The notes below the pieces were generated by a model. That model saw nothing but the letters and a program-made list of their open reading frames with translations, made no database searches and was not told the DNA's origin. The translations under genes and the position numbers were made by a program. From positions 1 to 50,097 of the IMG/VR virus record IMGVR_UViG_3300042445_001208: a stretch of 50,097 nucleotides of DNA. One strand, written 5' to 3'. Positions 5,084 to 35,524 of this stretch are shown one piece after another; position 1 is the first letter of the stretch, and the number at the start of each line of letters is the position of its first letter. Source of the stretch: a virus.

Positions 5084-5126
5084 AATAAAAAAGTTTACCA
5101 AAATTACCAAAAAAATCTTAAATAAT

Positions 5127-5162
5127 AAAAAAAGCCCTACTTTTTTATAGTAGAGCTTTTTT
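5127..5162 (-). terminator. Hairpin terminator after the 301-residue gene
   Basis: AAAAAAGC-C-CTACT pairs with AGTAG-A-GCTTTTTT with one internal mismatch and a short AT loop. On the minus strand it follows the stop at 5182 and ends in a T run. It is nearly symmetric, so it could work in both directions. It separates the capsid-side genes from the two hypothetical genes and the fibre. Confidence 0.75.
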
Positions 5163-5181
5163 CTTATAATTTAATTAAATT

Positions 5182-6166: not shown

Positions 6167-7522
6167 TTATGATAATACTTGCTGACGTAAGAAGTGCTGA
6201 ACACCTAAACACTCAAGACCTTGAGCAGTTGTCCAAGAACAAGTCCAGTTCATAGCATCTCCGTTAGGATTTACTGGAGAAATTGCACCGCTGTGGATTT
6301 CACCAATCATATCGTTACCGAATTTAGTTTGAGCTGGTACGTATCTTACACGCATTGCTGAATCATAACCACCACCTTGTACTTTAACACGGTTGTTGTA
6401 AGGAACATAGTATGCACATTTGTTAATTACAGTTTGACCGAATAATACTGGTTGGTCTTGGATTGGCATAGCCATGTAGTTAAGGGTGAAACCACCGTAA
6501 CTTACTTTGTCTACTTGTAAATCAAGTTCTTTACCGTCAACAACGATACGAACTGATTGTACGCCAGAAGAACCTAACGCCTTCCAATAGGTGTCATGAG
6601 CTCTCTTAACTGCACTTGAACCGAATACTAAATAATCTTTAGGAGATTTAGCTGCGATAAGTGTATCAAGAGCATCATCAATGTTTGCTTTTTGTACTGT
6701 ACCTAAAGTACCGTTAACGATTGTGTTACCGTACATCTCGATGTATTTGTTTAAACCACGAGTTGTTTGTACTGGTCCACCACCATCACTACCTGAAGTA
6801 TTACCATCAGTAAGGATAGGGTTAGTATCACTGAAAGTAGTAACTGACATATCACCAGCGATGAAAGCAGCATTGATTTTACCTTTAAGTAAAATTGCTT
6901 TTTCAAGGTGGTCTTTAACGATAAATTTGTTTTGACCGTTAAATTCAACTTCAATAGTTGCAGCGTTTTGAACGTCTGTAATTTTTGAAATTTCACGGAA
7001 GATTTGGTACTTGTTAGTGTACTTAGTTAAACCAAAACGTAAGTTAGTTTGGCTTACTGAGTTTTCACCAACAGCTACTGAGAATAAAGATAATTTATTA
7101 CCAGCAGTTAAAGTCATGTTAGCACCAGATACAGATTTGATGTATACGGTATCAACACCTGAAGTTGTTACAACATTTGTAACGATAGCAGAGATAGCAC
7201 CAGTTGGAACTAGAACTAAATCATCTTTACGTGCTTGACCAGAAGTCGCAGTAGTACAAGTAAAGTTGATAGAAGTTGTACCAGAACCATTTACAGTACC
7301 ACCAGTTGTATCAAGAAGTTTGAATAAAGCTTCGTTTACAAAAGTGTAATAGATAGGTTGACCAGTAGAGATAGGCTTCTTTCTGTCGCCTAACCACAAA
7401 ATGTCTGTTAAAGCATCATCGTTCTGAATATCAGTAACGAGCTTGTTAATCTCTCTCGTGTCAAGCACCGGGTCAATTGCGCTGACGTAGGCTTTGTTAA
7501 TGTTACCTAAATTGTCTGCCAT
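6167..7522 (-). CDS. Major capsid protein
   Basis: A 451-residue protein beginning MADNLGNINKAYVSAIDPVL. Length, mixed alpha/beta character, position between a scaffold-like gene and a decoration-like gene, and the C-terminal pattern (MRVRYVPAQTKFGNDMIGEIHSG) fit an HK97-fold major capsid protein of the kind in crAss-like and related Bacteroidetes podophages. An inserted Gly/Thr-rich segment near residues 70-110 could be a surface loop. It has its own leader of about 40 bases and a hairpin after the stop, consistent with high expression. Identification rests on context plus sequence character, not on a search. Confidence 0.82.
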   Translation of the reverse strand: MADNLGNINKAYVSAIDPVLDTREINKLVTDIQNDDALTDILWLGDRKKPISTGQPIYYTFVNEALFKLLDTTGGTVNGSGTTSINFTCTTATSGQARKDDLVLVPTGAISAIVTNVVTTSGVDTVYIKSVSGANMTLTAGNKLSLFSVAVGENSVSQTNLRFGLTKYTNKYQIFREISKITDVQNAATIEVEFNGQNKFIVKDHLEKAILLKGKINAAFIAGDMSVTTFSDTNPILTDGNTSGSDGGGPVQTTRGLNKYIEMYGNTIVNGTLGTVQKANIDDALDTLIAAKSPKDYLVFGSSAVKRAHDTYWKALGSSGVQSVRIVVDGKELDLQVDKVSYGGFTLNYMAMPIQDQPVLFGQTVINKCAYYVPYNNRVKVQGGGYDSAMRVRYVPAQTKFGNDMIGEIHSGAISPVNPNGDAMNWTCSWTTAQGLECLGVQHFLRQQVLS

Positions 7523-7564: not shown

Positions 7565-8710
7565 TTACCTGCCTATGGTTCCCATTTTAGCCCTTGAGCC
7601 AAAAGCTTCACCTAACGATTCATTGGGTTGGGCAGGTGCACTACCAACAGGTCTGCGTGCGTTTTGTCCTTCTTCAATGATAGCTTTCAATCCCAATGAC
7701 TTTCCATAATTCACAAGGTCCTTTTCATAGTTTGGATTAAGAGCAACTAATGCAATTTTTTGCAATTTAGCCACATCTGGAATTAACTTTGCTGGGTCCG
7801 CCTCTTGCGGATTTACAGAAATAGCTCTTTGCCACTTTTCTCCATCCAACGCTACTTCCATTAAATTTTCAGGTTTATCAATATTAAAATTGAATTTGCC
7901 ATTATCTCCTAAATCAATAGCAACTCTTTTGCTATTTAATAAGGATTTGGTAGCATCATGTTCCCTGAAAAACTGGAGAACTTGTTGTTGTTGTTCCATC
8001 ATAAACCGCTCTTGCTCTGCATATTGAAGCTGGTTGTCCACCTCTTGTGGCCTACTAACTTCTGGTATACGGAACTGCTGCTGTTCATAAATTCTTTTTT
8101 GTCTAACTAATTCTGCGTCTGCTTCTAGTTGAATTAATCCAATTTCTCTATCCTCATCAGCCGCAAAATCAGTCTGCTTATATCTTGCTTGATACAGCTT
8201 CTCAATCTTATCATCGCTAAGATTAGGATACTGTAATTTCAATTCATCAAATACCAAATCAGTATGAGATACATTATTCCAATCAAAAGCTTTTGCTTCT
8301 AGGAACTTATAAGCATCTCCACCATTTTTTCTAAACTCAGCAAAATCAGCAACAAAATCATCATAACCTAATTCTTTTAAAATTTCTTTAGGGTCAGACT
8401 TCTTTAATTGCTCTCTCCAATCAGTTACCTGAACAGGAGCGGATGATTGAGTTTCTTCGGTAGCATTTTCAACAGGCTCATCACCAAAATTAGGCATAGA
8501 AAAAGCTGTTACATTTTCCTCAGCCCGAGCTTCTGGTTCTGTTACAACCGTAGACTGAGGTCCTTCAGTTGATACCGTAGCTGATTCTGCACTTTCAGTT
8601 TGAATAGGTGCGGCAGGCTCTACAAACTCATCTTGAGGCATAGGGATACCGGTACTCATTCTATAAACTGGTTTTTGTTCTTGTGGTTGTTCTTGTTCTA
8701 GTTCTGACAT
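7565..8710 (-). CDS. Scaffolding-like protein
   Basis: A 381-residue acidic protein. The first about 110 residues are Glu/Gln/Pro/Thr-rich and probably disordered (MSELEQEQPQEQKPVY). The middle is strongly helical with Gln-rich coiled-coil stretches (RKRIYEQQQF, ERFMMEQQQQVLQFF), and the end is Arg/Gly-rich (FGSRAKMGTIGR). This composition, and the position immediately upstream of the capsid gene, match head scaffolds of tailed phages. No protease motif is seen. The leader contains CGTAACG and ACACATTTATG, sharing elements with the operator repeats and the start context seen elsewhere. Confidence 0.7.
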   Translation of the reverse strand: MSELEQEQPQEQKPVYRMSTGIPMPQDEFVEPAAPIQTESAESATVSTEGPQSTVVTEPEARAEENVTAFSMPNFGDEPVENATEETQSSAPVQVTDWREQLKKSDPKEILKELGYDDFVADFAEFRKNGGDAYKFLEAKAFDWNNVSHTDLVFDELKLQYPNLSDDKIEKLYQARYKQTDFAADEDREIGLIQLEADAELVRQKRIYEQQQFRIPEVSRPQEVDNQLQYAEQERFMMEQQQQVLQFFREHDATKSLLNSKRVAIDLGDNGKFNFNIDKPENLMEVALDGEKWQRAISVNPQEADPAKLIPDVAKLQKIALVALNPNYEKDLVNYGKSLGLKAIIEEGQNARRPVGSAPAQPNESLGEAFGSRAKMGTIGR

Positions 8711-8764: not shown

Positions 8765-9259
8765 TTAATTTTTACCCATACCCTTATCGAAGAACAGGAT
8801 TTCTTTAGATTCTGCTGCTATTTTATATTTAGCTAATAAATCACCATATTCACCAACTGCTTTTCTTTGAATTTCCATAAACTGTAATAAAAACTGTGCA
8901 ACTACACAATCTTCTTCTTCAGCCATTTGATAAAACTTTTTATATTGGTTATAAACTTCTAATTCTGTTTCATAACCAATTTCTAATGAGTCTCCTAAGT
9001 TTTCAATTTTATCTGTAATGGCATCTATTCTTGGAACGTCTGCGCAATCGCCCATATCATTCATAAACTCTACAATCATTTGATAGTGCGTAAGTTCTTC
9101 AGCGCTTTCTGCTAAAAAGTATTTTTGCGTACCAAACAATCCTAACTTCTGTAGCTGGTTCGCTAAACTTTTCCATAAGTTAGATTGATATAGTTCTACG
9201 TACAGAGCATCCTGTAGACCTTTTCTCATTTTGCCGCTGAGTAATGATTTAACTTCCAT
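8765..9259 (-). CDS. Ferritin-like protein (FtnA-type) in the head gene cluster
   Basis: A 164-residue protein, the usual bacterial ferritin length, with a four-helix-bundle pattern. Residues 22-36 (ELYQSNLWKSLANQL) match the first ferritin helix with the iron-ligand Glu at 22. Residues 51-60 (ESAEELTHYQ) give the ExxH pair Glu55/His58. YETE places Glu99 at the third-helix ligand position, and FLLQFMEIQ aligns Gln131 with Gln127 of E. coli FtnA. Even the tail (EILFFDKGM) resembles the FtnA tail (GLYFIDKEL). Site A looks complete. The fourth-helix acidic residues that build site C in FtnA are replaced (Lys133, Ala134). It lies 7 bases after the portal stop, upstream of the scaffold gene. Iron oxidation and storage are family knowledge; a virion role is speculation. 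Confidence 0.82.
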   Translation of the reverse strand: MEVKSLLSGKMRKGLQDALYVELYQSNLWKSLANQLQKLGLFGTQKYFLAESAEELTHYQMIVEFMNDMGDCADVPRIDAITDKIENLGDSLEIGYETELEVYNQYKKFYQMAEEEDCVVAQFLLQFMEIQRKAVGEYGDLLAKYKIAAESKEILFFDKGMGKN

Positions 9260-9266
9260 CTTATTT

Positions 9267-11594
9267 TTATTTTTTATTATTATTAACTGTTATTTTAGCT
9301 TCGGCTGAAATTCTTTGAGCAATAACTTTTGCGTCACTTTGAATCTTAGCTTCTTGAATATCGCTTTCTTTCTTACCCATTTGGATAATATAATCCCACT
9401 GCTTCTCTGCATTGATTTTAGCAATATCTACTTCTAATTGAGTCTGCAAAGTTGTTCTTTTCTCTTGCTCTGCAACCTGAGCTGCTTGAGCATTACCTTG
9501 CGTTTGTTGTTGAATTTTTTGTAATTCAAACTGCTGCATTTGCTCTCTGCGCTTTTTGATTCTGTAAGCCAAAATCATTGAAGCCATTTTCAAATTACGG
9601 CAACTCATTACAAGTATCTTATCTTCAGGCTCAATTAATCCTTGTGAATCACGAATGTTTAATTCTTGAATCAATTGCTGTCTTTCATAATCTTGCGGAG
9701 CATCTTCTATGAAAATACCGAATTCATGAATAGATAAATTAGGATTAATTTGTAAAAACTTAACTGTCTCCTCACCTAAAGCTTTAGACACACCTTGAAC
9801 TTTACCTAACTTAACAGCTATTTGAACCTTTGCAACAACCGCATCAGCCACAGCTTGAATTAATTGCTTATCAGCAAAAGTTAATAAATAAAGAGCATTA
9901 TTGGTACTTTCCATTGCTGCATTTGCAACAGGAACTAAGGTTCTTGCATTAGGAGTAGAGCCATCTGTCAGTTCATTCAATCCAGATACTTGACGCATTA
10001 AATCAATAGTGCGCATTAAATCATCATATAATTGACCGAATACAACTAATTGACCAGAGGCTTCGATACTTACTGGCTTGTAGTTTGGATTTTGACTTAA
10101 CAAATCTGTTGAACGATAAGGAACAACAAAGTTTGAGAAAATGAAATCCATAACTTTAGTAGGATTCATTTTTTCCCCACCACCGCCAAAGTCAACACCT
10201 TCAAGTGCGTTTAAGTCAATATTGATTAAATAAGGAATAAGTTTATTAGACATATTCTGTAACCTAAACCAAGCCAAACAAGCTTTATCCTCTAATGGAA
10301 TAAGTCTTTCAGTAACACCAGCAAAACGCATCTTGTAGAAGTTCCAAGCGTATAACTGAATATTCAATTGAGTATCCCACCAAGATGATGGTTTTCTAAT
10401 TTGGTTTTCAGACATACCCCAGTCATACATAAAGTCTGTCATTACAACCCACTTACACTTGTAAACAACCTTTTTGGTTACAGGCATAAAAACAGGGTCT
10501 GCTTGACCTTTGCTTTCCGTTTGACTCATTGGATTATTAAATTCAGATTCTAATGAACCTAATTGATTAACAGCCATTCTTGAAGCAGACTGATATTTAG
10601 TTTTACCAAATCTTATATTACCACGACCATCTACTTCTTCCTTGTAAGTATAATCGTTCCATGATAAAAATTCAAAATCTAAAACTAATATTTTAAACCT
10701 ATTCCAATATTTAGAATAGTCAGTTCCGTACATAAAGTTTGAAGGGTTGCCGAATCTTCCGGCAACAGATGTTACCATTTGATTCATCTGGTCTGCCGTA
10801 AAATATGGAGCTAAATCTCCAATATACATTTCTCTTACTTCACCCCAATGAACCAAATCAGAAAAATCACTTTTAGAGCAATAAGATAACACCATGTTTT
10901 CAGGGTTAATTTCTCTTATCTTAACGTGACCATTCTCATCAATCCATTGAGTATAACCACCCATTCCAAAATCAAACAAATTTTCTATAGTTCTTTTTCT
11001 CTTGTCATCAAATTTATTTTGATAAAAAGATAGTGATATAGCTTGCTCCGCCTCCATTGACATTACGTGCTTATATCCAAACTGCTGCTCCATTTCTAAT
11101 TGCTCCATATCTTGAGGCTCACCCGGAGCTGGCGCTAATACAGGACTATCTGCAAGTTCTTCTCCTCCAGCTTTCTTCAAAGCTTCACGCATCATAATCT
11201 TAACCTTCATTTCATTGAAGTAAGTATCTTCTTCACTTTTAGCTAATGGGTCTACAGCAAACGCTTGAATATCATATCTCCTTTGCACCAATTTTGAAAT
11301 AGCAATCTCCCTAAATTTAGTCAAGAATGATGGCGGAGTCCAGTCAATATTCAACCAGCTTTTATCTGTTTGCTCATCAGCGAGCAACATTTTTTTATAT
11401 TTAGTTGTACTTTGTCTACCTAATGCATACTCTCTAATTTCGTTCATTTTTGATTGACCGAAATTGAGCATATTGTTGGGTACATAACCACGGGAATCAC
11501 CCCAAGCTGCTTTTACATAAGATAAAATCCAATCGTACCCTTTTTCTCTTGGGTCTATCTGTTGATTGGGATACGTATTCGTTTGTTGCTGCAT
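9267..11594 (-). CDS. Portal protein
   Basis: A 775-residue protein starting MQQQTNTYPNQQIDPREKGY. An upstream in-frame ATG at 11621 falls inside the -7 promoter element, so the start at 11594 is preferred. The length, the early DWTPPSFLTKFREI segment, the NEMKVKIMMREA segment and the position beside the head genes match portals of crAss-like phages. The C-terminal about 130 residues are a long Gln/Lys/Ala coiled coil (QKIQQQTQGNAQ), as expected of a portal barrel or crown helix. It forms the DNA-entry ring for the terminase. Family assignment is from pattern recognition. Confidence 0.82.
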   Translation of the reverse strand: MQQQTNTYPNQQIDPREKGYDWILSYVKAAWGDSRGYVPNNMLNFGQSKMNEIREYALGRQSTTKYKKMLLADEQTDKSWLNIDWTPPSFLTKFREIAISKLVQRRYDIQAFAVDPLAKSEEDTYFNEMKVKIMMREALKKAGGEELADSPVLAPAPGEPQDMEQLEMEQQFGYKHVMSMEAEQAISLSFYQNKFDDKRKRTIENLFDFGMGGYTQWIDENGHVKIREINPENMVLSYCSKSDFSDLVHWGEVREMYIGDLAPYFTADQMNQMVTSVAGRFGNPSNFMYGTDYSKYWNRFKILVLDFEFLSWNDYTYKEEVDGRGNIRFGKTKYQSASRMAVNQLGSLESEFNNPMSQTESKGQADPVFMPVTKKVVYKCKWVVMTDFMYDWGMSENQIRKPSSWWDTQLNIQLYAWNFYKMRFAGVTERLIPLEDKACLAWFRLQNMSNKLIPYLINIDLNALEGVDFGGGGEKMNPTKVMDFIFSNFVVPYRSTDLLSQNPNYKPVSIEASGQLVVFGQLYDDLMRTIDLMRQVSGLNELTDGSTPNARTLVPVANAAMESTNNALYLLTFADKQLIQAVADAVVAKVQIAVKLGKVQGVSKALGEETVKFLQINPNLSIHEFGIFIEDAPQDYERQQLIQELNIRDSQGLIEPEDKILVMSCRNLKMASMILAYRIKKRREQMQQFELQKIQQQTQGNAQAAQVAEQEKRTTLQTQLEVDIAKINAEKQWDYIIQMGKKESDIQEAKIQSDAKVIAQRISAEAKITVNNNKK

Positions 11595-11618
11595 TACTAT
11601 GCTAAATTTAAGGTTACC

Positions 11619-11651
11619 CAAAAATACTTAAAACTATGTTAAAAATACAAA
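11619..11651 (-). promoter_or_regulatory. Bacteroidetes-type promoter for the portal/head operon
   Basis: On the minus strand, TTTG (11651-11648) is followed after 21 bases by TATTTTTG (11626-11619), matching TTTG-N19-21-TAnnTTTG. Transcription would start near 11612, about 20 bases before the portal ATG at 11594. It separates the glycan cassette from the portal-ferritin-scaffold genes. Confidence 0.7.
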
Positions 11652-11672: not shown

Positions 11673-12218
11673 TTAATATAATTCACGTCCTATAAGCAAA
11701 TCATCGTAACTCATATCCATCTTTGTGTTATACGAAAATCCATTATATTGGATGGCTGCAAATGGGTTACAAACATAGTATTTTCCCAAATTCGACAACG
11801 CCCTGTCTATATGCTCATCATCCGGAACGCTTAAATATTTATCATAAAACCCTTCATTAACTATATAGCAATGAAAACCTGTAAATGATTTAACAGAATT
11901 ATCCTCTAAAATTTCCCCTATGTATATGCCACTTAAATAAATATCAAAATCTTTTGGCTTGCTTTCTAAAAAATATTTAAAACTATTAGGATTTGTGAAC
12001 CTGACATCATCCTCCATTATACATATTTCCTTGAGTCCATTATCTTTTGCAAACTGAACGCATTGTTTATGGGCCAAATTGATACCTTTCATAACAGAAT
12101 ACTGGTCGTGTATAGCAGGGAATATCTGATAATCCCTTATACCTTGACCTATAAACTCTTGCATAAGCCTATCAAACCTTTCGTGAGAATCAAAATTGTG
12201 GATAACTGCTATCTTCAC
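11673..12218 (-). CDS. Glycosyltransferase-like protein (GT25-like)
   Basis: A 181-residue protein. MKIAVIHNFDSHERFDRLMQ, then ICIMEDDV (about residues 66-73), resembles the start and the acidic EDD motif of family 25 (LPS biosynthesis) glycosyltransferases, though the protein is short. The central segment FDIYLSGIYIG parallels the 'ILYLGA' region of the second GT25-like protein at 16793-17416. No membrane segment. It is the last gene of the glycan cassette and overlaps the upstream exostosin-like gene by four bases (ATGA). The substrate cannot be told. Confidence 0.62.
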   Translation of the reverse strand: MKIAVIHNFDSHERFDRLMQEFIGQGIRDYQIFPAIHDQYSVMKGINLAHKQCVQFAKDNGLKEICIMEDDVRFTNPNSFKYFLESKPKDFDIYLSGIYIGEILEDNSVKSFTGFHCYIVNEGFYDKYLSVPDDEHIDRALSNLGKYYVCNPFAAIQYNGFSYNTKMDMSYDDLLIGRELY

Positions 12219-13036
12219 TTTTCTAAAATCTTAATTATGTTATTAAGTGCTCCTTCGTAAGTGTAATACTCTTTGTATATTTCACCTATTCTTTCTTGCT
12301 TATCAACTATTTCCAAATTAGAAATACTACCCAAAATTTGTTCTATTCTATCAGCATCCCTTTCTTCTATTATAATACCAAAATCCCTAAAATCTAAATC
12401 AAATGGATTTACAAATTCATCGGATATGTAAACAGGTATAGTTAAATACTGCATACATTCAGCTATCCTAAAACTATTTAATCCATAACCCCTTGGACAT
12501 AAGCCAAATAATGATTCAGATATAATATCACAAAACTGATTGATGTCATGTCCTTTGTCTGATATGTAATAGTCTGGATTCAATATATTAAAAACGTGTT
12601 CTCTTACCGGATGAGTATGGGTTCCAATAAATGAAGCAAATCTTCTCTTTCTACCATCCCATTCAAAAGAGTGTGGCATACAAAGAAGCGGTATTTCAAC
12701 ACCTACCTTCTTGCTCATGCTAAACTGAAGTACATCTAAATCTTTTAGGTCAATGATTATTCCGTCATCATATTGACATATAGTCCAATACTTTTTATCT
12801 CTTGACAAGTTGTCCACATATTTCTGTAGCTTATCAATAGCTTGCTTATCGTTGCCATAACTATTATTAACATGATAAGCGGTCCATTGTATTGGCAAAT
12901 ACTCCCTTTCTGTTTGTGGAATATATTGCCTCGTTACCCAATCCTCAAAAATAAAAATATTTTCAAACGGATAAATGGTATTTATTGTTGGCGTAAATTC
13001 TGAAGGTACGTTTATCATAATTATTTTTTTATCCAA
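12215..13036 (-). CDS. Exostosin-like glycosyltransferase (GT47-like)
   Basis: A 273-residue protein. The C-terminal half carries the pattern FGLCPRGYGLNSFRIAE followed by YLTIPVYISDEFVNPF, close to the exostosin/GT47 signature in which the Arg/Glu pair and the IPV...D...PF stretch shape the sugar-nucleotide site. MPHSFEWDGRKRRFASFIG matches the preceding strand/loop region of that family. It overlaps the FkbM gene by 16 bases and the next gene by four, so the set is translated as a unit. The donor and acceptor sugars are unknown. Confidence 0.72.
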   Translation of the reverse strand: MDKKIIMINVPSEFTPTINTIYPFENIFIFEDWVTRQYIPQTEREYLPIQWTAYHVNNSYGNDKQAIDKLQKYVDNLSRDKKYWTICQYDDGIIIDLKDLDVLQFSMSKKVGVEIPLLCMPHSFEWDGRKRRFASFIGTHTHPVREHVFNILNPDYYISDKGHDINQFCDIISESLFGLCPRGYGLNSFRIAECMQYLTIPVYISDEFVNPFDLDFRDFGIIIEERDADRIEQILGSISNLEIVDKQERIGEIYKEYYTYEGALNNIIKILEK

Positions 13037-13644
13037 ATTGCATCACCCCATGAATGATAATGAGAAGCCCATTTTGTTTCTACTCTGTGAAATCCAAAAG
13101 GTAAAAGAAATTCATCTAGCTCCTCAACCATTGGGCATCCTTTATATGTTTCTTGTCTGTTAACCTCTAAGTAAAGTAAATCAAATTGAGGTAGCACTTT
13201 TACCGAACCTTTCAAAACCTCTAATTCGTATCCTTGAGTATCTACCATAAATAAATTATACCAAGAAGGGAATTCTATACTATCCAATGTCACAATCTTA
13301 ACTACTTGTGGGTCTCCGTTAAAAATAACTTCAGAGTGCTGCTCTAAATGAACAAATGGCTCTAACAAGCTATTGCTTTGTCCTTGGTTAGTTGTATCTA
13401 CACACATAACGCCTACATCAGGTTTACTACCAATTGCAACATTTTCTAATTTTACATTAGAATCTCCTGCGAATCTTTGAACTAAAACTTCAAATGCTTC
13501 CTTAATAGGCTCTACATATAAAAAACCTCTAAGTCCACAATCAATATAGTCGTTATGTTCTTCTGCCCAATGAGCGCCAACGTGAGCAACTCCATCTAAT
13601 TTTATATCATACTTTTCAAGTATTGGTTTTAATGGTATCAGCAT
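13021..13644 (-). CDS. FkbM-family methyltransferase
   Basis: A 207-residue protein. LDGVAHVGAHWAEE resembles the SAM-binding loop of FkbM methyltransferases, followed by the acidic VEP (strand-2 end), and VKIVTLDSI ... LFMVDTQGYELEVLKGS is the family's very typical TLDS...D(V/T)(E/Q)GxELxVLKG stretch. FkbM enzymes O-methylate sugars or polyketides. Here it sits between an epimerase and an exostosin-like transferase, so methylation of a glycan is likely. Overlap with the next gene suggests coupled translation. Confidence 0.82.
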   Translation of the reverse strand: MLIPLKPILEKYDIKLDGVAHVGAHWAEEHNDYIDCGLRGFLYVEPIKEAFEVLVQRFAGDSNVKLENVAIGSKPDVGVMCVDTTNQGQSNSLLEPFVHLEQHSEVIFNGDPQVVKIVTLDSIEFPSWYNLFMVDTQGYELEVLKGSVKVLPQFDLLYLEVNRQETYKGCPMVEELDEFLLPFGFHRVETKWASHYHSWGDAIWIKK

Positions 13645-13645
13645 A

Positions 13646-14635
13646 TTATACTTTTTGATTAATCCAGTTATATAATTTCTCTATTCCTTCACGAAGTGGT
13701 TTTGATGGCTTCCATCCTAATTTTTCTTCTATAAGAGTATTGTCAGAATTCCTACCACGTACACCTATTGCATTTGATTCTACATTTTTAATAGATAAAT
13801 TCTTTCCAGAAATATCAATAACCATTTTAGCTAAATCATTAATTGCAATCATTTCATTTGAACCAATATTTACCGGATGCACGTAGTCGCTGTCTAACAA
13901 TCTCATTACTCCTTCTACAGCTTCATCTATAAAAAGAAACGACCTAGTTTGTTTACCATCTCCCCATATCTCTACTTCACCATATTCTTCGGCAGAAGCC
14001 ACTTTATAGCAAACGGCAGCAGGAGCTTTTTCCTTGCCATTATTATAACATGATTCAGGTCCAAATATGTTATGAAACCTACAGATTCTTACATCTAACT
14101 TGTAATTTCTTCTGAATGAATCAAATAGTATCTCACTAAATATCTTTTCCCATCCGTAGGGTGAATCTGGATTAGCAGGGAAACAATCGCTTTCTTTTAA
14201 CGCTGCACAATCTTCTCTTTCTTGAATTTGCTCAGGATACGCACAAGCTGAAGATGAAAATAATATTTTCTTTACTTTATTCTTAGTGCAATAGTGAACC
14301 ATGTTTAGATTAACCAATGCAGAATTATGCATTACGTTAGCATCATTATCACCTGTAAATATATACCCAGCTCCGCCCATGTCGGCAGCCATTTGAATAA
14401 CTAAATCAAACGAACCATGTCCGCTATATATGTCGCTCTGATTAGGCGCAAACGTAATCCTACTTACAAGTTCTGGATTTCTTAAATCACCTACCACAAA
14501 ATGGTCAGCTTCTGTTTCAGAATACTCAGGTCTTTTTAAGTCAACACCTCTTACCCAATAACCTTCTTTCTTTAATCTTTTTACCATGTGGCTACCAATA
14601 AATCCACCTGCGCCACAAACTAATGCTGTTTTCAT
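13646..14635 (-). CDS. GDP-mannose 3,5-epimerase-like extended SDR enzyme
   Basis: A 329-residue extended short-chain dehydrogenase/reductase. The NAD-binding GAGGFIG is at residues 8-14, SSSACAYPE with Cys131, and SPYGWEK with Tyr160/Lys164. Further matches are AADMGGAG, RICRFHNIFGP, GKEKAPAA, GDGKQTRSFLFIDE and GVRGRNSDN. This series closely follows plant GDP-D-mannose 3',5'-epimerase (GME), where the Cys and a Lys carry out the epimerisation and the Tyr/Lys pair is the SDR dyad. The expected product is GDP-L-galactose (and GDP-L-gulose). A UDP-sugar epimerase or GDP-fucose synthase is less likely given the RGRNSDN and ADMGG stretches. Sits in the glycan cassette two bases after the methyltransferase stop. 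Confidence 0.83.
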   Translation of the reverse strand: MKTALVCGAGGFIGSHMVKRLKKEGYWVRGVDLKRPEYSETEADHFVVGDLRNPELVSRITFAPNQSDIYSGHGSFDLVIQMAADMGGAGYIFTGDNDANVMHNSALVNLNMVHYCTKNKVKKILFSSSACAYPEQIQEREDCAALKESDCFPANPDSPYGWEKIFSEILFDSFRRNYKLDVRICRFHNIFGPESCYNNGKEKAPAAVCYKVASAEEYGEVEIWGDGKQTRSFLFIDEAVEGVMRLLDSDYVHPVNIGSNEMIAINDLAKMVIDISGKNLSIKNVESNAIGVRGRNSDNTLIEEKLGWKPSKPLREGIEKLYNWINQKV

Positions 14636-14637
14636 GT

Positions 14638-15225
14638 TTATTTATTTAGTTTTAAATACCATTGTTTTCTAAAAAACCATACTCCAAAATTGTTTAAAGT
14701 ATCTTCTGATTGTAATACATTTTCAGGATTAAAGCTTCTGTCACCAATATCATCTCTTACAAATACTTTAGGAACAACTTCTTCAACTGCCCTACGTACT
14801 TCATCTGCATTATAATCATGTCCTGCTAAAATGTATTCATCTTTAACTTTTGGATACCAAGCCCTAATTTCTTTTTTAGTTTCTTCATATGTATGTGATG
14901 AGTCTATATAACAGAAATCTAAGTATCCGTCATTAAACATTTCCGATGCTTCTAAACTACCAAATGGAACTACTTCTATAAAATCACCTAATCCGCTTTT
15001 AATTATGTTTTGGTAAATAGTTTTCATTTGAAGATACTTACCATAATCCATATTATCTACCATATATAGCTTAAACTTCTTTCCAAGTCTATTAAGCTCC
15101 TGAGCTAAAAACAAAGCGCTATCCCCATCGGCTACTCCAACCTCACAAATCTTACAATCATCTGGAAGTTCTTTTGCAATTCTTTGATAGAAGTGCGGAA
15201 AATCAAACATTAAAAAATCGCTCAT
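14638..15225 (-). CDS. Class I SAM methyltransferase (Methyltransf_24-like)
   Basis: A 195-residue protein. CKICEVGVADGDSALFLA is a Rossmann SAM-binding loop, LYMVDNMDYG gives the acidic ribose-binding residue, and LDFCYIDSSHTYEETKKEI is the IDGxHxYE-like strand-4 motif of the Methyltransf_24 group, often found in surface-polysaccharide loci. AGHDYNADEVRRAVEE fits the following metal/active-site region. It probably methylates a sugar or a glycan precursor. Two-base gaps join it to its neighbours. The exact substrate is unknown. Confidence 0.75.
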   Translation of the reverse strand: MSDFLMFDFPHFYQRIAKELPDDCKICEVGVADGDSALFLAQELNRLGKKFKLYMVDNMDYGKYLQMKTIYQNIIKSGLGDFIEVVPFGSLEASEMFNDGYLDFCYIDSSHTYEETKKEIRAWYPKVKDEYILAGHDYNADEVRRAVEEVVPKVFVRDDIGDRSFNPENVLQSEDTLNNFGVWFFRKQWYLKLNK

Positions 15226-15227
15226 AA

Positions 15228-15965
15228 TTACATTTTTATAAAATAAGGTGGAACAATATCGCTAGTATCTAAACCATCCCATCCCGGACTAAACCAAAAT
15301 GTAGGGAATATAACTTTTTTATTTTCGTTTCTATTCAACCATCCTCCCCACCAGCTAAATGTACTTGGGCTGCATATCTGATGCTCACACCAACTCATTT
15401 CTAATAGGTCTGATACCTCATCAGTATTACCAGAAAATTCGCAATCATTTCTGTGCTTAAAGTTCTCCATGCACCACTGAATGTCATCAGAAAAGAACTT
15501 AAACTTGTATCCCGGAAATTCAGCCATAACTTTTTCATACCATTCTACTTTTACTTCTGGATGCTTGTTTCTTAATTGAACATAATCACCCCTTCTAACA
15601 TGACAAGCTACGTATCCGTCCTGTCTATTATATGGGAAATTAAATAGGTATAATATCTCGTTTCTATATTCATCAAAATACTTTGCCGTCTGCCTGTAAC
15701 CTTCTATTGAAATATTCTTATCTCTCCATTCTTCATTAAAAGGCAGTTCTTCGTAACTATGTTTACCTTCCCATAAATTAATCTTCTCTAAGTTAGGATT
15801 ATAATTTGGGTTAACCAAGTGTAAGCAATATATAGGATTCCATTTAGGATGGTCGCTATGAGATGGCACAGTGAAATCTAGGTTATGTTTTAATGCATAA
15901 GCTATAGCGGTGGCTGCTTCAAAGCACCAATTACCCATTCTTCCAGCGTTTGTAAATGTTACCAT
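15228..15965 (-). CDS. Alpha-1,2-fucosyltransferase-like glycosyltransferase (GT11)
   Basis: A 245-residue protein. GRMGNWCFEAATAIAYA near the N-terminus and the donor-binding CHVRRGDYVQ at about residues 121-130 are the GT11 hallmarks (GxxGNxxFxxA and HxRRGDY). FFSDDIQWCMENF and CSPSTFSWWGGWLN match the two later conserved blocks of this family. GT11 enzymes move L-fucose from GDP-L-fucose. Because L-galactose is 6-hydroxy-L-fucose and the same cassette encodes a GDP-mannose 3,5-epimerase, GDP-L-galactose is a plausible donor here (inference). The start codon lies 6 bases after a strong stem in the leader (15972-16077), which may control translation. Confidence 0.82.
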   Translation of the reverse strand: MVTFTNAGRMGNWCFEAATAIAYALKHNLDFTVPSHSDHPKWNPIYCLHLVNPNYNPNLEKINLWEGKHSYEELPFNEEWRDKNISIEGYRQTAKYFDEYRNEILYLFNFPYNRQDGYVACHVRRGDYVQLRNKHPEVKVEWYEKVMAEFPGYKFKFFSDDIQWCMENFKHRNDCEFSGNTDEVSDLLEMSWCEHQICSPSTFSWWGGWLNRNENKKVIFPTFWFSPGWDGLDTSDIVPPYFIKM

Positions 15966-15971
15966 AATTAA

Positions 15972-16077
15972 AAGCCCCCTACGACAAGACGGCTTAATTC
16001 ACGCAGGGGGGCTTGAACGTCTTGTTTTCGGGGGTATGTCTTATTTAACAACTAACCATTTATTTATGAATTAAGCG
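15972..16077 (-). ncRNA. Structured leader with three interleaved complementary arms
   Basis: In the minus-strand transcript three pairs of complementary arms occur in the order A B C A' B' C'. A (GAATTAAGC, plus-strand 16068-16076) pairs with 15992-16000. B (CGTCTTGT, 16018-16025) pairs with 15984-15991. C (AGGGGGGCTT, 16005-16014) pairs with AAGCCCCCT at 15972-15980. This order is not a simple inverted repeat: the pairs cross, giving pseudoknots or mutually exclusive stems. C-C' ends 6 bases from the fucosyltransferase start codon and is followed by TTTAATTATG, so it could act as a terminator or hide the start. I know no named RNA family that fits. Confidence 0.5.
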
Positions 16078-16094
16078 ATACTAAAATAAATAAT

Positions 16095-16790
16095 TTATTT
16101 CATATTTCTAAGTTCTTCTTCAACTTTTTGATAAAATTCTGGGTCTATACTACAATTAAGTTTATAATGCGATTCATCGTGAACCAAATGCTCGTATTGC
16201 ATCCCCGGAACTATGTGCATTTTATTGCCCCACTTAAACCAATTCATGTTTTGATATATACTATCTGAGCTATGTGGGTCCGTATTTGCATCCCAAACCT
16301 TTACATAATCCATTGCAGAAACAAAATAATTCATGCAATTTAGGCAAGTGGAAAAAAATGGCCTATCCATGTATTTTGCTACATTTTCTTTAGATATTGT
16401 TAACCCACTAAATTCTGTGTAATCAAATAATGGTTTTGCAAAATCAGGAGCCAATATGGTTTTTTTATCCCAAGTTTGAGAATATATCTTATCTATGTAT
16501 TTTTCATCTATCTGATTGTCGCTATCTAATAATATACAATAGTCGGTTGGTGAATAGCTAACAGCTACAAATTTATTGGCATAACAATCCTGATTTGTGA
16601 CATTTCTGTAAAGCTTAACCTTGCTTAACTTATCACATTCTTCCTTTAACCTAGTATACACATCAATATCACTAGCATCATCTACTATTACAATAGTGTC
16701 TATTCTAGCGTCATCATAAACTTTTTTAAAGCTATTTAGGGTCATTTCTACCCTATTCCAAGTTGGGATACAAATACTTATCTGTTGCAT
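16095..16790 (-). CDS. Glycosyltransferase family 2 protein
   Basis: A 231-residue GT-A-fold enzyme. QQISICIPTWNRVEMTLNSF is the usual GT2 opening, IDTIVIVDDASD carries the first Asp pair of the nucleotide site, and YCILLDSDNQID provides the metal-binding DxD-type motif at about residue 94. No membrane segment, so probably a cytosolic transferase. It is separated from the next downstream gene by the structured leader, and from the GT25-like gene upstream by two bases. Donor unknown. Confidence 0.82.
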   Translation of the reverse strand: MQQISICIPTWNRVEMTLNSFKKVYDDARIDTIVIVDDASDIDVYTRLKEECDKLSKVKLYRNVTNQDCYANKFVAVSYSPTDYCILLDSDNQIDEKYIDKIYSQTWDKKTILAPDFAKPLFDYTEFSGLTISKENVAKYMDRPFFSTCLNCMNYFVSAMDYVKVWDANTDPHSSDSIYQNMNWFKWGNKMHIVPGMQYEHLVHDESHYKLNCSIDPEFYQKVEEELRNMK

Positions 16791-16792
16791 TG

Positions 16793-17416
16793 TTAAAGGT
16801 TTGATTCAGAAAATTTTTGATAATATCGCTGCTCTATAAATGGTTGCCAATTTATTTCAGTCCTTCCTATATCACTATATCCCGGTCTTTGCGTACAAAG
16901 CAATGGATATGTTATGTACGTATGTCCGTTTGGCTGAACTGTTTTTACTACGCAATTATCTATCGGAGCCTCTAATCCTGCTGCCAGTATCTCCTTCATT
17001 CCATCAAGAGATATAGCCCATGCGTGTGTTGCAAATGCCATATCTAATAAAAGTAAATTATTTGACGGCTTTGCTTTAAATCCGTTTGTGCATTGCGCTC
17101 CCAAATATAGTATTTGCCAAGTAGGAGGCAACTGCTTTACTACCTGCTCCATAGTTTCATTAGGGTTACCGCAGCTATCTACAAACATTGCGTCATCTTC
17201 AAATATTAAAACAGATTTTAAATTATCTGTTACTGCATCCCTAAATATCTTTTCTACAGTAATTCTTAATCCTTCTGCACCGTTTTCGTGTGGAGTTGCG
17301 TTCACTAACTCGTATGGTATTCCCCATTTATAAAGTTCTTCAGCTATTTGCAATAGCCGGTCAGTTCTACTCGGAAGATTTATAACAAGTATTTTATCAA
17401 AAAAATCGGTCCACAT
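16793..17416 (-). CDS. Glycosyltransferase family 25 (LPS biosynthesis) protein
   Basis: A 207-residue protein. KILVINLPSRTDRLLQIAEEL is the classic GT25 N-terminus (VINLxxRxDR), followed by VLIFEDDAMF with the acidic EDD motif and then the WQILYLGAQC and AFATHAWAIS regions typical of the family. GT25 enzymes add galactose or related sugars to LOS/LPS or proteins. It is the first gene of the glycan cassette, and its start overlaps the terminase stop by one base, so the cassette is read from the terminase transcript. Confidence 0.82.
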   Translation of the reverse strand: MWTDFFDKILVINLPSRTDRLLQIAEELYKWGIPYELVNATPHENGAEGLRITVEKIFRDAVTDNLKSVLIFEDDAMFVDSCGNPNETMEQVVKQLPPTWQILYLGAQCTNGFKAKPSNNLLLLDMAFATHAWAISLDGMKEILAAGLEAPIDNCVVKTVQPNGHTYITYPLLCTQRPGYSDIGRTEINWQPFIEQRYYQKFSESNL

Positions 17417-19467
17417 TAGCGTGTTGGTTTCATGGCAAAAAAATCAGAAAGCTTAGTTTTATTATCTACTTTTTTCAAGTTAACTTTTTTATAATAATCT
17501 GCAAATAAAGTCCATCCGCCTCCCATTACCAAATCCGATACTTCTGTATCATTAACATTGAACTTTAGCAATCCGTCATACTTATCATCTATCAAATTAG
17601 GATATATTATTTTACCGTCCTTACCACTTGTAAGTATATATTGTTCCCATAAATTTACCATTAACGCTTTATTATCTGAATTAGGGTCTACACCATAAGT
17701 ATCTTTATTAGGAAGCTTCATTAAAAACATTTCTAAGTAATTGTCAACAAAGAACTTACGCAAACCACCGTCCATTTTAGCCTCGACTAATAATTGTCCT
17801 CCATAAGCAAAGCACTGAAGTGCCATGTCCATGTGAAAAAGCTCTACCATCTTAGGTCTTGCATGGTACTTTGAAACAAGCATCCTATCAAATACGGGGT
17901 CATTATCTCCCTTATCGTATCTATTCATTACAAAACTACTGGCTTTAGAGCCTTCTCCAGATTCAACTACTGAGTTTTGGAAGGGGTCAACAGCACTTAC
18001 AAACTGAACATAGTTCTTAGGTATAAACAAACTCCCTCTTTTCTCATAAGTTTCTTCTGGAGTTTTGAAATCCTTAGCCCTATGCCATCTTGCACTTTCT
18101 TTATCGCACTTATGCCAAATAGCTTTTGTGAAAGGTATACCGCCCTCCCATACATAATTACCATACTCAACTGCCGAACTTTCACCAACCTTTGCTAATT
18201 CATACAAGTCATTTAATACAACGGCATCGAAGTGACAATTATTGTTCCGAAGCATAAACATTTCCCTTTCATCAAAAGGGTTCATCCTTATTTCTTCCTC
18301 TAATTGTACGCCTTCTAGCTGCTTTCTTTTTTCTTCAAGGTACTTTTTAGCGCCTAATCTTATATCACTTTCATCCAAGTCACCAGCTCCAACATAATAC
18401 TCAACTAGAAATTTATATTGTTCTTCTGTAGGCTCATTAATAACACTCATTCCGAACTTGTCAATAAAACCTAAATAGCCATCATAAGCTGGGGCAAAGT
18501 ACTTAACTAATCTATTAGGAGTCTTTGCGTATTTAAAATGGTCTGCGCCATCCCATACATTCTTAAATTCCTCACCACCACTTGTCATTGAGTTTGATGT
18601 AGAAGGACACTCTATAAATCCAACCCTTTTAGCACCCTTTACAAGAGTCTTACTTACAATTGATATAAATGTAGAAAAAGGGTTTTCTTTAGCCCATTTT
18701 CCACCTTCATCAAACAACCCTCTACTTAGTCGACCTGAGTCATAAGAGTTCAATGAAGGCGCTCTATAATCAATCCTAGACCTATGTCCTGTATCTGTAT
18801 CTACTATACTTCCCTTAGCGCCTCTTACCTCTACTGATTTGTGAGCAAATACCAATTCACTAACGCTATCTTTATTATTTAATTGTTTTGGTTTTAAAAA
18901 TACTGGCAATTGCCTGTAACCAAAAGAAACCATGTTCGTAAATGCAGCCTTAGCATCTATTTGAGTTTTACTTGTTAAACCGCAGAAGCTATTCTTGTAA
19001 AATATACATTCATAAACCAAGTTAGAAGTAGCTACCGAAGTAGCACCCTCACGTCTTTTCTTACCTCTCACAATACCTAAGCACCAAGGGGTTCTTTCCC
19101 AATGGTCTAAAAATAAAAAGTATCTTCTATCTGTATCCCTGTAGTCTGGGTATATGTCATCCTCTAGCTTCCAAAAGCTTAAATAAAAATAATTTTTACC
19201 GCTTATGTAAGTTGGAGTGCCATTATTGTAAAACCAAAATCCCTTCTTGCATCTTAGAACTTCTCTATTAGCGTAAGCGGCTTGCTCTGCGTTTAACAGG
19301 GCATTACCCTCACTATCATATTCTACAAGAGATAAAAATGCAGGTATTTCTTTTCTTCTCCAATATTGTTCATTAGGGTCATCTGTACCCCAATTTTCTA
19401 TATCAGATGCATCAGGCTTTTCCGGAAGTTGAATTTCCGTGCCGTATATTTTTATGGTTTCTAGCAT
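17416..19467 (-). CDS. terL: Terminase large subunit
   Basis: A 683-residue DNA-packaging ATPase/nuclease. RGKKRREGATS at residues 134-144 is the arginine/lysine-rich Walker-A-like loop seen in crAss-like terminases, and LFDE at 251-254 is Walker B with its catalytic Glu. GFIECPSTSNSMTSGGEEF corresponds to the motor coupling region. The C-terminal RNase H-type nuclease begins at VQFVSAVDP (Asp494) and continues at LLVEAKMDGG (Glu562). It cuts and drives DNA through the portal. Upstream lie two small genes, one of which might be the small subunit. The overlap with the glycan cassette puts both in one late transcript. Confidence 0.9.
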   Translation of the reverse strand: MLETIKIYGTEIQLPEKPDASDIENWGTDDPNEQYWRRKEIPAFLSLVEYDSEGNALLNAEQAAYANREVLRCKKGFWFYNNGTPTYISGKNYFYLSFWKLEDDIYPDYRDTDRRYFLFLDHWERTPWCLGIVRGKKRREGATSVATSNLVYECIFYKNSFCGLTSKTQIDAKAAFTNMVSFGYRQLPVFLKPKQLNNKDSVSELVFAHKSVEVRGAKGSIVDTDTGHRSRIDYRAPSLNSYDSGRLSRGLFDEGGKWAKENPFSTFISIVSKTLVKGAKRVGFIECPSTSNSMTSGGEEFKNVWDGADHFKYAKTPNRLVKYFAPAYDGYLGFIDKFGMSVINEPTEEQYKFLVEYYVGAGDLDESDIRLGAKKYLEEKRKQLEGVQLEEEIRMNPFDEREMFMLRNNNCHFDAVVLNDLYELAKVGESSAVEYGNYVWEGGIPFTKAIWHKCDKESARWHRAKDFKTPEETYEKRGSLFIPKNYVQFVSAVDPFQNSVVESGEGSKASSFVMNRYDKGDNDPVFDRMLVSKYHARPKMVELFHMDMALQCFAYGGQLLVEAKMDGGLRKFFVDNYLEMFLMKLPNKDTYGVDPNSDNKALMVNLWEQYILTSGKDGKIIYPNLIDDKYDGLLKFNVNDTEVSDLVMGGGWTLFADYYKKVNLKKVDNKTKLSDFFAMKPTR

Positions 19468-19785: not shown

Positions 19786-20007
19786 TTAATTTAGTATTAT
19801 ATTCGGTAACCCTACATTATACTTGCCTCCTTCATTATGGTCACAAGCCGTTAGGGATATTACCGTAATTTCATGATTATCATTAGTTAAATCCAAGACA
19901 GCGCTATCCTCTATACATATAGGGAATAGCGTGTCGTTTGCAAATATATACATTTCTGTGTCACCATCTAACTCTGCTGTCAATTCTCTAAAATCTTCTA
20001 ATGTCAT
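19786..20007 (-). CDS. Small acidic hypothetical protein
   Basis: A 73-residue acidic protein (MTLEDFRELTAELDGDTEMY) with alternating hydrophobic strands (MYIFANDTLFPICIED; HEITVISLTACDH) and no recognised domain. The start overlaps the stop of the giant upstream gene by four bases, indicating coupled translation. Function unknown. Confidence 0.6.
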   Translation of the reverse strand: MTLEDFRELTAELDGDTEMYIFANDTLFPICIEDSAVLDLTNDNHEITVISLTACDHNEGGKYNVGLPNIILN

Positions 20008-23000
20008 CTGTTAAACCTTTTTCTTGCTCTTGATAATTTTCTATCTTCAATTTTCTCCTCTCTAGTTTTTCTTTCTTTACCAAAAAGCTTTTCTTTTGAC
20101 AATCTTGTTGCTTCGGAAGCTATTGACTTTTTAGCTTTCTTAACTTCTTCTTCTGTCATATCTTCAACCTTTTTAGTAACTACATTTCCTTTGTCTAATG
20201 TAAGATTAAATTTTGATTTACCATCGTATAATTTTCTTATTTCTTTTTCTATATTAGCATCTCTTAGTTTAACTAATTCATCAAATTCTTCATTATTTAT
20301 AGGTCTATCTCCATCTTTATGATTCTTGATTAGCTCAGGATTCATCTCATCAGAGTTCAACATTCTTTCTAAAGAAGTTTCTAATGATTCTTTATTTGCC
20401 TGAGTAGCATAACTTCCGTAACCAATACCTAAAATGTTTGGAAGAAGAACAGTAGCTAATGAAGTAATACCCTCATCTTTTAATGCTTCTGCAAAATCAT
20501 CAGCATACATTGGATAAGCTTCTAATACTTCATAAGGGTCAAAATCTTGATTTAAAGTATTTTTACCCAATATAGCATTTACCGCATAGCCGGTATTTGG
20601 AGCCAACTTGTTTCTAAAAAACTTAACTAATGAACTTCCGGCTCTTTCAAGTTTTTTCTGTTGATTATACTTATTATCACTAACTCTTGAATATAATGCA
20701 GATACCATTCTAAAGAATGTTCTTAAATAAGCAGCTTTACCTCCGGTAATGTCATACACCTTTTCACCAAATCTAATTTGTAAAAAATCTGGTTCATCTG
20801 GGTCTAACGTCACAGTAGCTCCTGCTGCCGATGCTGCAAGCATTATTCCGGTTGTAGTAGTAACAATAGATAAAACATCTTTCATTACATCCTTCCTAAC
20901 TCCCGGAGGCAATTTAGCATATTTAACAGGATTTAAGCTATTTATATTTGCGGCCATTAAACGAGCGCCATAAAATGTATTACTTACAACTTTGTTTGCT
21001 TTACCTGATTCTAAGAAGCTAATTAATTTTCCACGACCTGTCATATTCATAACAAGGTCTGCCATTCTTTTGTAAGCTTCAGGGTCAGACTGTCGAGTAA
21101 TACCCTGCTTTAATAATTGCTTTTCATACTTTAAATACATCTCGTATCTAGCCGTATTTAAAAATCCATCAGCCGCTCTCTGAGATGCCAATAATGGCTC
21201 TGTTATTAACTGTCTTACAATAGGTATCTTAATACCATAAAGAAAACTTTTTTGGAAATCTTCATTTCTTTCTTCATTCTTTAATGCATCAAGCTCATTA
21301 AACTTAATGCCATCTTCTACCATTTTACTATATTCAGAAGAATTATGTATATCATACATTAAACTATTGAACTTTTTATCACTAAACACGCTTTTCATTT
21401 GATTACCAAAAGCCTTAGCAAAAACGTCCCATTTTCTAAAATTTAGAGCAATCGAAATACCTTGACGTAAAGAAACGGATAAGTCAAATGCAGTTTGCAT
21501 AACCCTTCTGATACCAGTAATTTGATTGATATGGTCAAGGGCCTTTTCTGTTTTGCTCATTTTTTTATAAGCATCTTTTTGTCTTTCAGCTTCTATCTGT
21601 CTTTCAAGCTTAATAACATTATCTTTTAATAATTGTGTTTTTCTATCTAACTCAAGTTTAGGTGGAGCCTTTTTTTCTTCCAAATACCTTTTATTTTTAA
21701 TATCTTCTTGAAGTTTTTCTATTCTTCTTGTAAGCATTTTTCTTTTAGAGGCAAGTAATTCATCTTCAGTTTTTGAAGCAAATTCTGGTTCAGTAAATTC
21801 TTCAGGAACACGGTCTCTTTCTTTATTAAGCCTTTTTACCTCTTTTATTTTATCTTCAAGCTCTAATATTCTATCGTTCTTTTTAACTTTTTGAGCAGGA
21901 TTCTTTTCCTTCTCAATACCTTTTCTAACATTTTCAAGCTCTTTTATTAACGCAGCTTCTCTTTGTAATAATCTTAATTCTTCAGCCTTTTCATTTCTGG
22001 TTCTTGGTTTTGACTCATCATACTCACCATTAAAAATATCTAGTACATCTTTTTTAGTCATGCCATCTACTATATCTTTAAATTCAGCGTAAGTATCATT
22101 TACAATATCATCTAGTTTATTAGCGCCTTCTTCTACCAAGCTTTTTATATATTTTTTAACATGAGGTGATACAGCTTTCAATTCTCTAAAATAAGGAACA
22201 ACCACAGCGGTAACCCCTTCTTCTCCAGTTCTTAACTTTCTTAAAGCTTCGCGTGCATCAGCTAGTGATTGCTTTCTCTCAATAACATATTCTTCTCTTG
22301 TCTTTTTAGCAGCTTTTTTAGCGGCGGCTCTAGCTTTATTAACTCCCATTTCGGCAATTAATTTAGCATTAACTTCTTCGCTTTTTTGTAACGCTTCTTT
22401 TAAAGCATTTTTTTCTTTTTGAAGCTCCTCAAATATTCTAGCTTGGTCTTTTATTTCAGATTCAGTAAACGGATAACCTCTATCATTTTCTCTCATTAAT
22501 AAGAAGTCAGGTAAAGTATCTTCCACTTGCTTGACACCTTGTCTAGCTCTTAATGATTGACCAACCAATTTACCTCCGACATTATTACTTAGCTCCATTA
22601 TTCTTTTAAATTGAGCTAAGTTTTCTGGTGAAGGATTAGCATTAATCTTTGCCTTTGCAGAAGATATAATAACCAACATAGCTCTTTGCTCTTGAGGTGT
22701 AGGTATTTTACCTTCTTCGTATTTAGCAATTAATTTATTAGCATATTCTGGGTCATTAGCCAATTTCTGTTTAGCTTGATTATCCCATTGCTCAACTGTT
22801 TCAGGACTTGCTTCGTACTCAGGGAAATCTAATTCACGTGCTACCTCATTTAATTGCTCATGGGTAATACCAATTACTTCGCCTTCCTCAGCACCCTTGG
22901 GTTGTGCTTCTTCTGCGGTTTTGGCTTTGCTTTCTCTGGTAGACTCATCCCCTTGCTTTCCTTGTTCCACTCGTTTACGTCCACCCCCTGTGCCTCCATC

Positions 23001-33972: not shown

Positions 33973-34614
33973 TTATTTAGTTTCTTGAGTTTGAACCTGA
34001 GCAAATTGCTGAATATCTTGTTCAGCCATATTGATACCCCAAAACTTCAACGCTCTTGATATAATATTGTTAATATAAACGTCTGTAAACTCCAATTGAG
34101 TACTTGTTCCCGGATTATAAGTTATAGTTCTACCTGATTGAGTATAACCCAAAACTGGAGTAGCTGGTCTTTTTAAATAATTATAAAAACCAGATTGTGT
34201 AGCACCAGGATATAATCTAAACCCAACTGATGCATCAATTGCAATAGGATTACTTGTAGAAACGGCTCTTAATTGACTTTTTAAAGCTAATGCTAATTCA
34301 TCTTCATTTAAAAACCTTACGTTGTTAATTGTACTTCCACTAACAGTGTAAGCTCCACCAATTAAATGCAAGTAATCGGCATCAAAAGTTACTAATCCAG
34401 TAGAATCGGATGTAAAACTTTTTTGAACCCTTAGCTTTCTTATCGCATCATGAATTATTTGCGTTGTACCGTAAGTTGAAAACCACTCCTCAACAGCTTC
34501 TAATTGTGCATTATCTAGCGTTTGCATGGCTTCATTTACAGTTACAAAAACTCCACGTTCTTTACGAACAATGAATAACATTTGATTGTATATGTCATTT
34601 ATATTATAAGGCAT
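33973..34614 (-). CDS. Head-to-tail ring/adaptor protein
   Basis: A 213-residue protein with an N-terminal helical bundle pattern (MPYNINDIYNQMLFIVRKER, then NAQLEAVEEWFS), a central beta region around residues 70-120 and a C-terminal segment VYINNIISRALKFWGINMAEQ. This organisation is usual for the small ring proteins next to tail tube genes in podoviruses. The start lies inside the end of the upstream GroES-like gene (11-base overlap). Function inferred from context. Confidence 0.65.
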   Translation of the reverse strand: MPYNINDIYNQMLFIVRKERGVFVTVNEAMQTLDNAQLEAVEEWFSTYGTTQIIHDAIRKLRVQKSFTSDSTGLVTFDADYLHLIGGAYTVSGSTINNVRFLNEDELALALKSQLRAVSTSNPIAIDASVGFRLYPGATQSGFYNYLKRPATPVLGYTQSGRTITYNPGTSTQLEFTDVYINNIISRALKFWGINMAEQDIQQFAQVQTQETK

Positions 34615-35455: not shown

Positions 35456-35494
35456 AGATGGTATAAAATTAAGTTTTTTATAGGATATAAAAAT

Positions 35495-35524
35495 AAAATG
35501 CCCCCAAAATTTTGAAGGCATTTT
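35495..35524 (-). terminator. Terminator between groES and the double GroES-like gene
   Basis: AAAATGCC (35495-35502) pairs with GGCATTTT (35517-35524) around a 14-base loop. On the minus strand the stem ends in a T-rich run (TTTTATTTTT). It follows the groES stop at 35543, so the early and late minus-strand units are probably transcribed separately. It also rules out a start codon at 35521 for the next gene. Confidence 0.75.

Follow-up and report, generated by a model that had tools for sequence, protein, structure and literature searches.

The window, by which we mean the whole 50,097-nucleotide stretch analysed here (IMG/VR record IMGVR_UViG_3300042445_001208), carries a head-gene neighbourhood in the order TerL, sugar-gene cassette, portal, ferritin, scaffold-like protein and probable capsid, all on the minus strand. 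The ferritin gene (8765..9259) encodes 164 amino acids from an ATG start and is separated from the portal ORF (9267..11621) by exactly 7 bases, the spacing given in an earlier note made from the DNA letters alone. The portal ORF spans 784 amino acids when counted from a TTG start, the real start perhaps lying further in, and its identity is firm by homology (phrog_6547, 4e-64; 25% identity to an Elemovirus portal, E=1e-42). Downstream of the ferritin, the scaffold-like protein (7565..8710, 381 amino acids) is named from its position and from a profile match to the same-place 'structural protein' of Elemovirus and Callevirus (hhalign probability 84%, E=8e-6). The probable major capsid protein (6167..7522, 451 amino acids) agrees in position and size with the Calle_1 major capsid protein, and one of its five homologues has a SU10_MCP Pfam match (2.8e-5); hhalign gave no support against the Elemovirus/Callevirus capsids (probability 1.4%), and AlphaFold brought no confirmation of the fold (model pLDDT 30, set aside). 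The earlier note had placed ferritin ahead of scaffold and capsid genes: this order holds, and the two names are more weakly supported, through synteny, the scaffold profile match and the single SU10_MCP homologue.

On the other side of the portal, and on the same strand, lie the sugar-gene cassette (11673..17416; GT2, GT11, GT25, GT47, NAD epimerase, FkbM, Methyltransf_24), the terminase large subunit TerL (17416..19467; phrog_6681, 3.2e-73), giant protein A (20004..26864, 2286 amino acids), which is ejection-type by position, and a GroES-like protein (34604..35521; phrog_13932, 8e-10, and synteny). The best segment of giant A is about 80% identical to giant A of a related phage (G001), and no Pfam, PHROG or PDB match was found for the window's own copy; its homologues in sister phages range from 1416 to 3557 amino acids, with apparent gain and loss of domains. 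The sugar cassette, which includes a GT47-like exostosin and FkbM and Methyltransf_24 methyltransferases, keeps its place between TerL and portal in relatives and possibly serves virion glycosylation. Two further genes of the same phage are possible redox genes, one PAPS-reductase-like (43791-44570) and one whose protein matches a PHROG labelled 'ferredoxin' (37354-37992; 1.9e-39) without a Pfam match.

The ferritin ORF matches Pfam Ferritin (PF00210) with E = 8.3e-16 and 58.6 bits (cutoff 24.5), Ferritin and Rubrerythrin being the only Pfam families above cutoff. In a PDB search the top matches are ferritins, down to 2e-9 and spanning residues 5-159, and the PHROG match, phrog_16594 (1.3e-9), is to a family without annotated function. 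The AlphaFold2 model (pLDDT 93.6) comprises five predicted helices (A 9-38, B 42-68, C 88-116, D 118-151, E 154-160), and Foldseek superposes it on the E. coli, Archaeoglobus and Thermotoga ferritins of the PDB with a TM of 0.91-0.92 and an rmsd of 1.3-1.6. Profile and model together put the match far above chance level, and the ferritin identity proposed in the earlier note is borne out, the predicted fold including the short helix E. A four-helix bundle followed by a fifth C-terminal helix is the architecture of maxi-ferritins (pLDDT 93.6, TM 0.91). Dps hallmarks are missing from the protein, whose loop 69-87 is devoid of a helix and which possesses helix E and intrasubunit ligands, and the place of the bacterioferritin heme-ligand Met, beside the bridging Glu, is taken by an invariant leucine, L56. 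The Pfam scan found no MuF/SPP1 gp7 domain (PF04233) in the ferritin, and no fused packaging domain or packaging signal was found on it. The gene thus encodes a genuine non-heme ferritin, and it belongs to a phage-only family.

Alignment with E. coli FtnA superimposes E17/E50/H53/E94/Q127 on E22 (codon at 9194-9196), E55 (9095-9097), H58 (9086-9088), E99 (8963-8965) and Q131 (8867-8869) of the window protein, the very residues singled out earlier as ligands. They form the intrasubunit pattern Glu / Glu-x-x-His / Glu / Gln and are invariant in 102/102 distinct phage proteins. The loss of the third iron site, also proposed earlier, is real: FtnA E126/E129/E130 correspond to I130/K133/A134, and site C is likewise gone across the clade, with position 130 hydrophobic in nearly all of the 102 proteins and position 134 restricted to A or S. 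Ferritins as a whole are not defined by site C, which H-chains lack. The human H-chain counterparts of the phage residues are E27, E62, H65, E107, Q141 and A144; Q131 and A/S134 occupy the places of Q141 and A144, so that the suspected change of ferroxidase behaviour amounts, by alignment, to a centre resembling that of animal H-chain ferritin rather than a defective site. Elsewhere in the 102 proteins, position 29, equivalent to FtnA Tyr24, holds Tyr or Trp, and four residues never vary: G136, Y138, G139 and D140, which form on helix D a G-x-Y-G-D motif that is not present in the cellular ferritins aligned here. The window ferritin is probably catalytically competent in the H-chain manner and probably forms an oligomer, which may be a 24-mer; it would also be expected to bind iron.

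A single-sequence scan of IMG/VR with the window ferritin returned 29 loci, and profile scans returned at least 67 loci and at least 224 encoding stretches, with at least 131 from the distant end, these sets overlapping. At least 108 distinct IMG/VR ferritin genes were compared and 102 distinct proteins entered the ligand alignment; such counts are not independent events, and independence was judged from unrelated head genes and from the mixed tree. In this tree the phage ferritins group together, with a support of 0.57 for the whole clade and 0.99 without the three most distant members, and gene settings are intermixed across it. When 84,980 genomes of bacteria and archaea were scanned, a single match, at 26% identity, emerged at the search sensitivity used. 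Each of 20 long phage records holds exactly one ferritin copy, and dN/dS between close pairs is about 0.01-0.06: the protein is under strong purifying selection. No cultured relative carrying the family ferritin was found among 50,697 phage records. The best INPHARED match, MT838721 (human faeces), looks like a bacterial fragment and was left out of the set of phage relatives; listed in GenBank as 'Bacteriophage sp.', MT838721.1 (L030) has two ferritin-like ORFs together with phosphoglycerate-mutase-like and sigma-factor-like ORFs, and is probably mislabelled.

The nearest named phages, Elemovirus (Flavobacterium) and Callevirus (Cellulophaga), with a portal identity of 23-25%, share the order GroES, TerL, portal, 'structural protein' and capsid, with no ferritin in between. 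Closer relatives were collected through the capsid, a presence test not selected on ferritin. Where the capsid is 85-99% identical and the sequence adequate, ferritin lies between portal and scaffold in all relatives but one (L127), and the gene is therefore nearly fixed in the window lineage; recurrence at this site, which the earlier note had suggested looking for, was thus found, in a placement that proved broader than proposed. The exception is a natural empty site, with 7 bases from portal stop to scaffold start, in a record of 4.5 kb, so that a copy elsewhere is possible. Since cultured relatives of the same gene order and this empty site lack it, ferritin is not generally needed for assembly.

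Among related phages the gene occupies three places: after the portal (the window and G016), after the GroES-like gene (G010) and between giant proteins A and B (G001, in the order giant A, ferritin, giant B). The G010 ferritin stands between the GroES-like homologue and the next late gene, in a phage whose portal is about 63% identical. One further relative (L024) resembles the window at 85-99% identity along most of the ferritin flanks and has a different ferritin allele, 59-84% identical in DNA across most of its length, whose protein clusters in the tree with the ferritin of the GroES-site phage; this replacement suggests that ferritin types are exchanged between phages. At 4672-5163 of that record, the ferritin gene alone appears cleanly replaced within otherwise near-identical phages. 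The gene has thus been moved and exchanged yet kept, its protein strongly constrained.

Across the clade, ferritin is found in five or more different gene settings, nearly all of them in the virion module. Automatic assignment placed 106 of 108 distinct genes in virion-module contexts; L102 was added by eye to the giant setting because the start of giant B lies within the ORF that follows its ferritin, and L269 is the sole gene left without an assigned setting. The settings are portal/ferritin/scaffold (in two unrelated groups), MuF/ferritin, GroES-like/ferritin/connector and giant/ferritin/giant, the commonest having ferritin between a giant upstream protein of about 900-2000 amino acids and a giant downstream protein. 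In the second portal-adjacent group (L187/L188, 61% GC, unrelated to the window), TerL and portal (phrog_12082, 5e-166) are followed by ferritin and then by a scaffold-like protein; neither portal nor terminase belongs to the family found in the window. In the MuF setting (L192/L193), TerL, a Mu-type portal (PF06074, 4e-40) and MuF (PF04233, 1e-9) precede ferritin. Downstream giants of higher-GC phages carry ART-PolyVal, Zeta_toxin or LPD39 domains in 5/5 scanned (L090, L096, L098, L101, L191), and an InPase domain occurs in one upstream giant neighbour of ferritin. No polyvalent-type domains were recognised in the low-GC giants, and a search of cultured phages did not recover the giant-B head, the matches covering mainly the ART part.

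Where ferritin sits between the giants (L012, L083, L096, L101 and relatives), giant A ends in ..NF..I..L..KI..C(P) and giant B begins with M..C.Y....; the giant A tail is missing in phages without giant B, and the two look like a matched pair of termini. The conserved Cys tail as a ferritin dock was considered and dropped: L051-type and window-type phages lack both tail and giant B and keep ferritin, and the tail therefore follows giant B, not ferritin.

The association of ferritin with genes that build or load the virion points to a part for iron handling in virion making or delivery. We consider the best explanation, with an even chance of being right, to be that the ferritin is made late and becomes virion cargo performing Fe(II) chemistry in the head and perhaps in the new host. 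It would be expressed together with the head genes and would enter the prohead in the manner of portal-linked minor head proteins of the SPP1 gp7/MuF type and of polyvalent proteins; in the head, and possibly after ejection into a new host, it would oxidise and bind Fe(II), using up O2 or H2O2 and so reducing Fenton damage to phage DNA and co-packaged enzymes. A 24-mer ferritin cage is about 12 nm across, too wide for the portal channel, and delivery, if any, would therefore need subunits or unfolded chains; otherwise the ferritin would remain in the head. By analogy, packaging is favoured by the slot after the portal, which is that of MuF, by the MuF neighbour in L192/L193 and by polyvalent or ejection-type neighbours in most carriers. 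Ferritin also shifts its position within one lineage yet stays among late genes. Against packaging, a neighbourhood suggests co-expression and not packaging, and the cage size argues against intact ejection. The three functions offered in the earlier note (iron loading of virions, protection of DNA at assembly, transport of host iron to a new cell) are conjectures that go beyond what sequence can show. The broader proposal, which we advance tentatively and hold to fall a little short of an even chance, is an old and widespread virion class in which ferritin would be internal cargo, packaged alongside the portal, MuF, ejection and polyvalent proteins; delivered to the host or put to use during infection, it would keep iron and peroxide in check near the genome as it enters.

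Whether the protein is packaged or cytosolic, it would be expected to oxidise Fe(II) by means of O2 or H2O2 and so to lessen Fenton damage to DNA. A late-expressed ferritin that stays unpackaged in the cytosol is a serious contender, which we would nonetheless rather bet against. The late operon would then provide timing and dose, and the protein would mop up free iron and peroxide while the host is dying and DNA is being packaged. Intact catalytic ligands and strong conservation need no packaging, the gene shifts among several late sites, and the Dps-like and Mn-catalase genes of gut phages are read in the same way (PMC8008677). What timing leaves unexplained is the repeated adjacency, in unrelated phages, to portal, MuF, ejection-type and polyvalent genes, and not to lysis or tail-fibre genes. 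That the four-helix bundle has been co-opted as a head or portal accessory, its metal chemistry incidental, seems improbable to us: the portal-adjacent slot in two unrelated groups and the phage-only invariant G-x-Y-G-D would fit, but a purely structural role would not preserve five metal ligands in 102 proteins, most phages place the gene away from the portal, and L127 has the empty site.

Still less probable is an iron-loaded decoy ('Ferrojan horse'), in which particle iron would exploit host iron-uptake receptors, as put forward for Vi01-like phages with the ferritin-like gp217 (PMC10892097); in that system TonB and FeoB mutants were infected with similar efficiency, and the genes next to ferritin here are of the internal head, ejection-type and polyvalent kinds rather than tail-tip genes. 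We give least credence of all to a host gene recently inserted by chance into the head cluster, as an ordinary moron or auxiliary metabolic gene. Sister genera without ferritin speak for it, but the sporadic presence and close host homologue that define such genes were not found: all adequately covered capsid relatives except L127 have the gene, the bacterial and archaeal scan gave its single distant match at the sensitivity used, and the same clade recurs in several unrelated head modules.

Virion cargo, the reading we prefer, bears on a debate over virion iron and the 'Ferrojan horse' that has lacked a defined protein carrier, for which this family is a concrete candidate. With its intact ligands, phage-only signature and many environmental carriers, its presence in virions is directly testable, for instance through the predicted tryptic peptides AVGEYGDLLAK, AVGHYGDLLAK or SVGEYGDLLAR in viral metaproteomes. 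If the proposal is true, iron and redox control would be added to the recognised roles of proteins that accompany phage DNA into the cell, and metal handling would be part of the injected set.

Compared with cellular non-heme ferritins (FtnA 1EUM, P. furiosus 2JD6, A. fulgidus 1S3Q, T. maritima 1VLG), the phage proteins share the fold including helix E, the length, the site A and B ligands and the helix-D Gln; they differ in having 20-29% identity, I/L, K/T/R and A/S at the site-C places, the G-x-Y-G-D motif and W/Y at the Tyr24 equivalent. With animal H-chain ferritin they share the ferroxidase centre E, E/H, E, Q plus A/S, without site C, at low identity and here in a phage gene. Phage genes of the ferritin superfamily were already known, namely Gratiaviridae Dps, Lactobacillus phage Dps, SU10 CDS67, Vi01-like gp217 and the phiLo putative ferritin. 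Dps and Mn-catalase genes are present in gut phages (PMC8008677), CDS67 is a Dps-domain middle-gene product detected in SU10 preparations (PMC4281155), and gp217 was seen by mass spectrometry in a Vi01-like phage whose infection is independent of TonB and FeoB (PMC10892097). Those checked in the text are Dps-type or remote, none being reported as a portal-, MuF- or polyvalent-linked family. The full-text literature searched, which most subscription papers lie outside, described no ferritin family with a portal, polyvalent or auxiliary-metabolic link, nor one tied to virion and ejected-protein genes, and the paper on polyvalent proteins makes no mention of ferritin (PMC5512222). MuF proteins, whose slot follows the portal, are represented by SPP1 gp7, a portal-binding protein located in the capsid (PMC5576092); the window ferritin, without a MuF domain, has the same slot directly after the portal, and that of L192/L193 follows MuF itself. 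Polyvalent proteins, for which packaging and injection along with the DNA have been proposed (Iyer et al. 2017, PMC5512222), supply the ART-PolyVal, LPD39 or Zeta_toxin domains of ferritin's direct downstream neighbours, ferritin itself being a solo protein.
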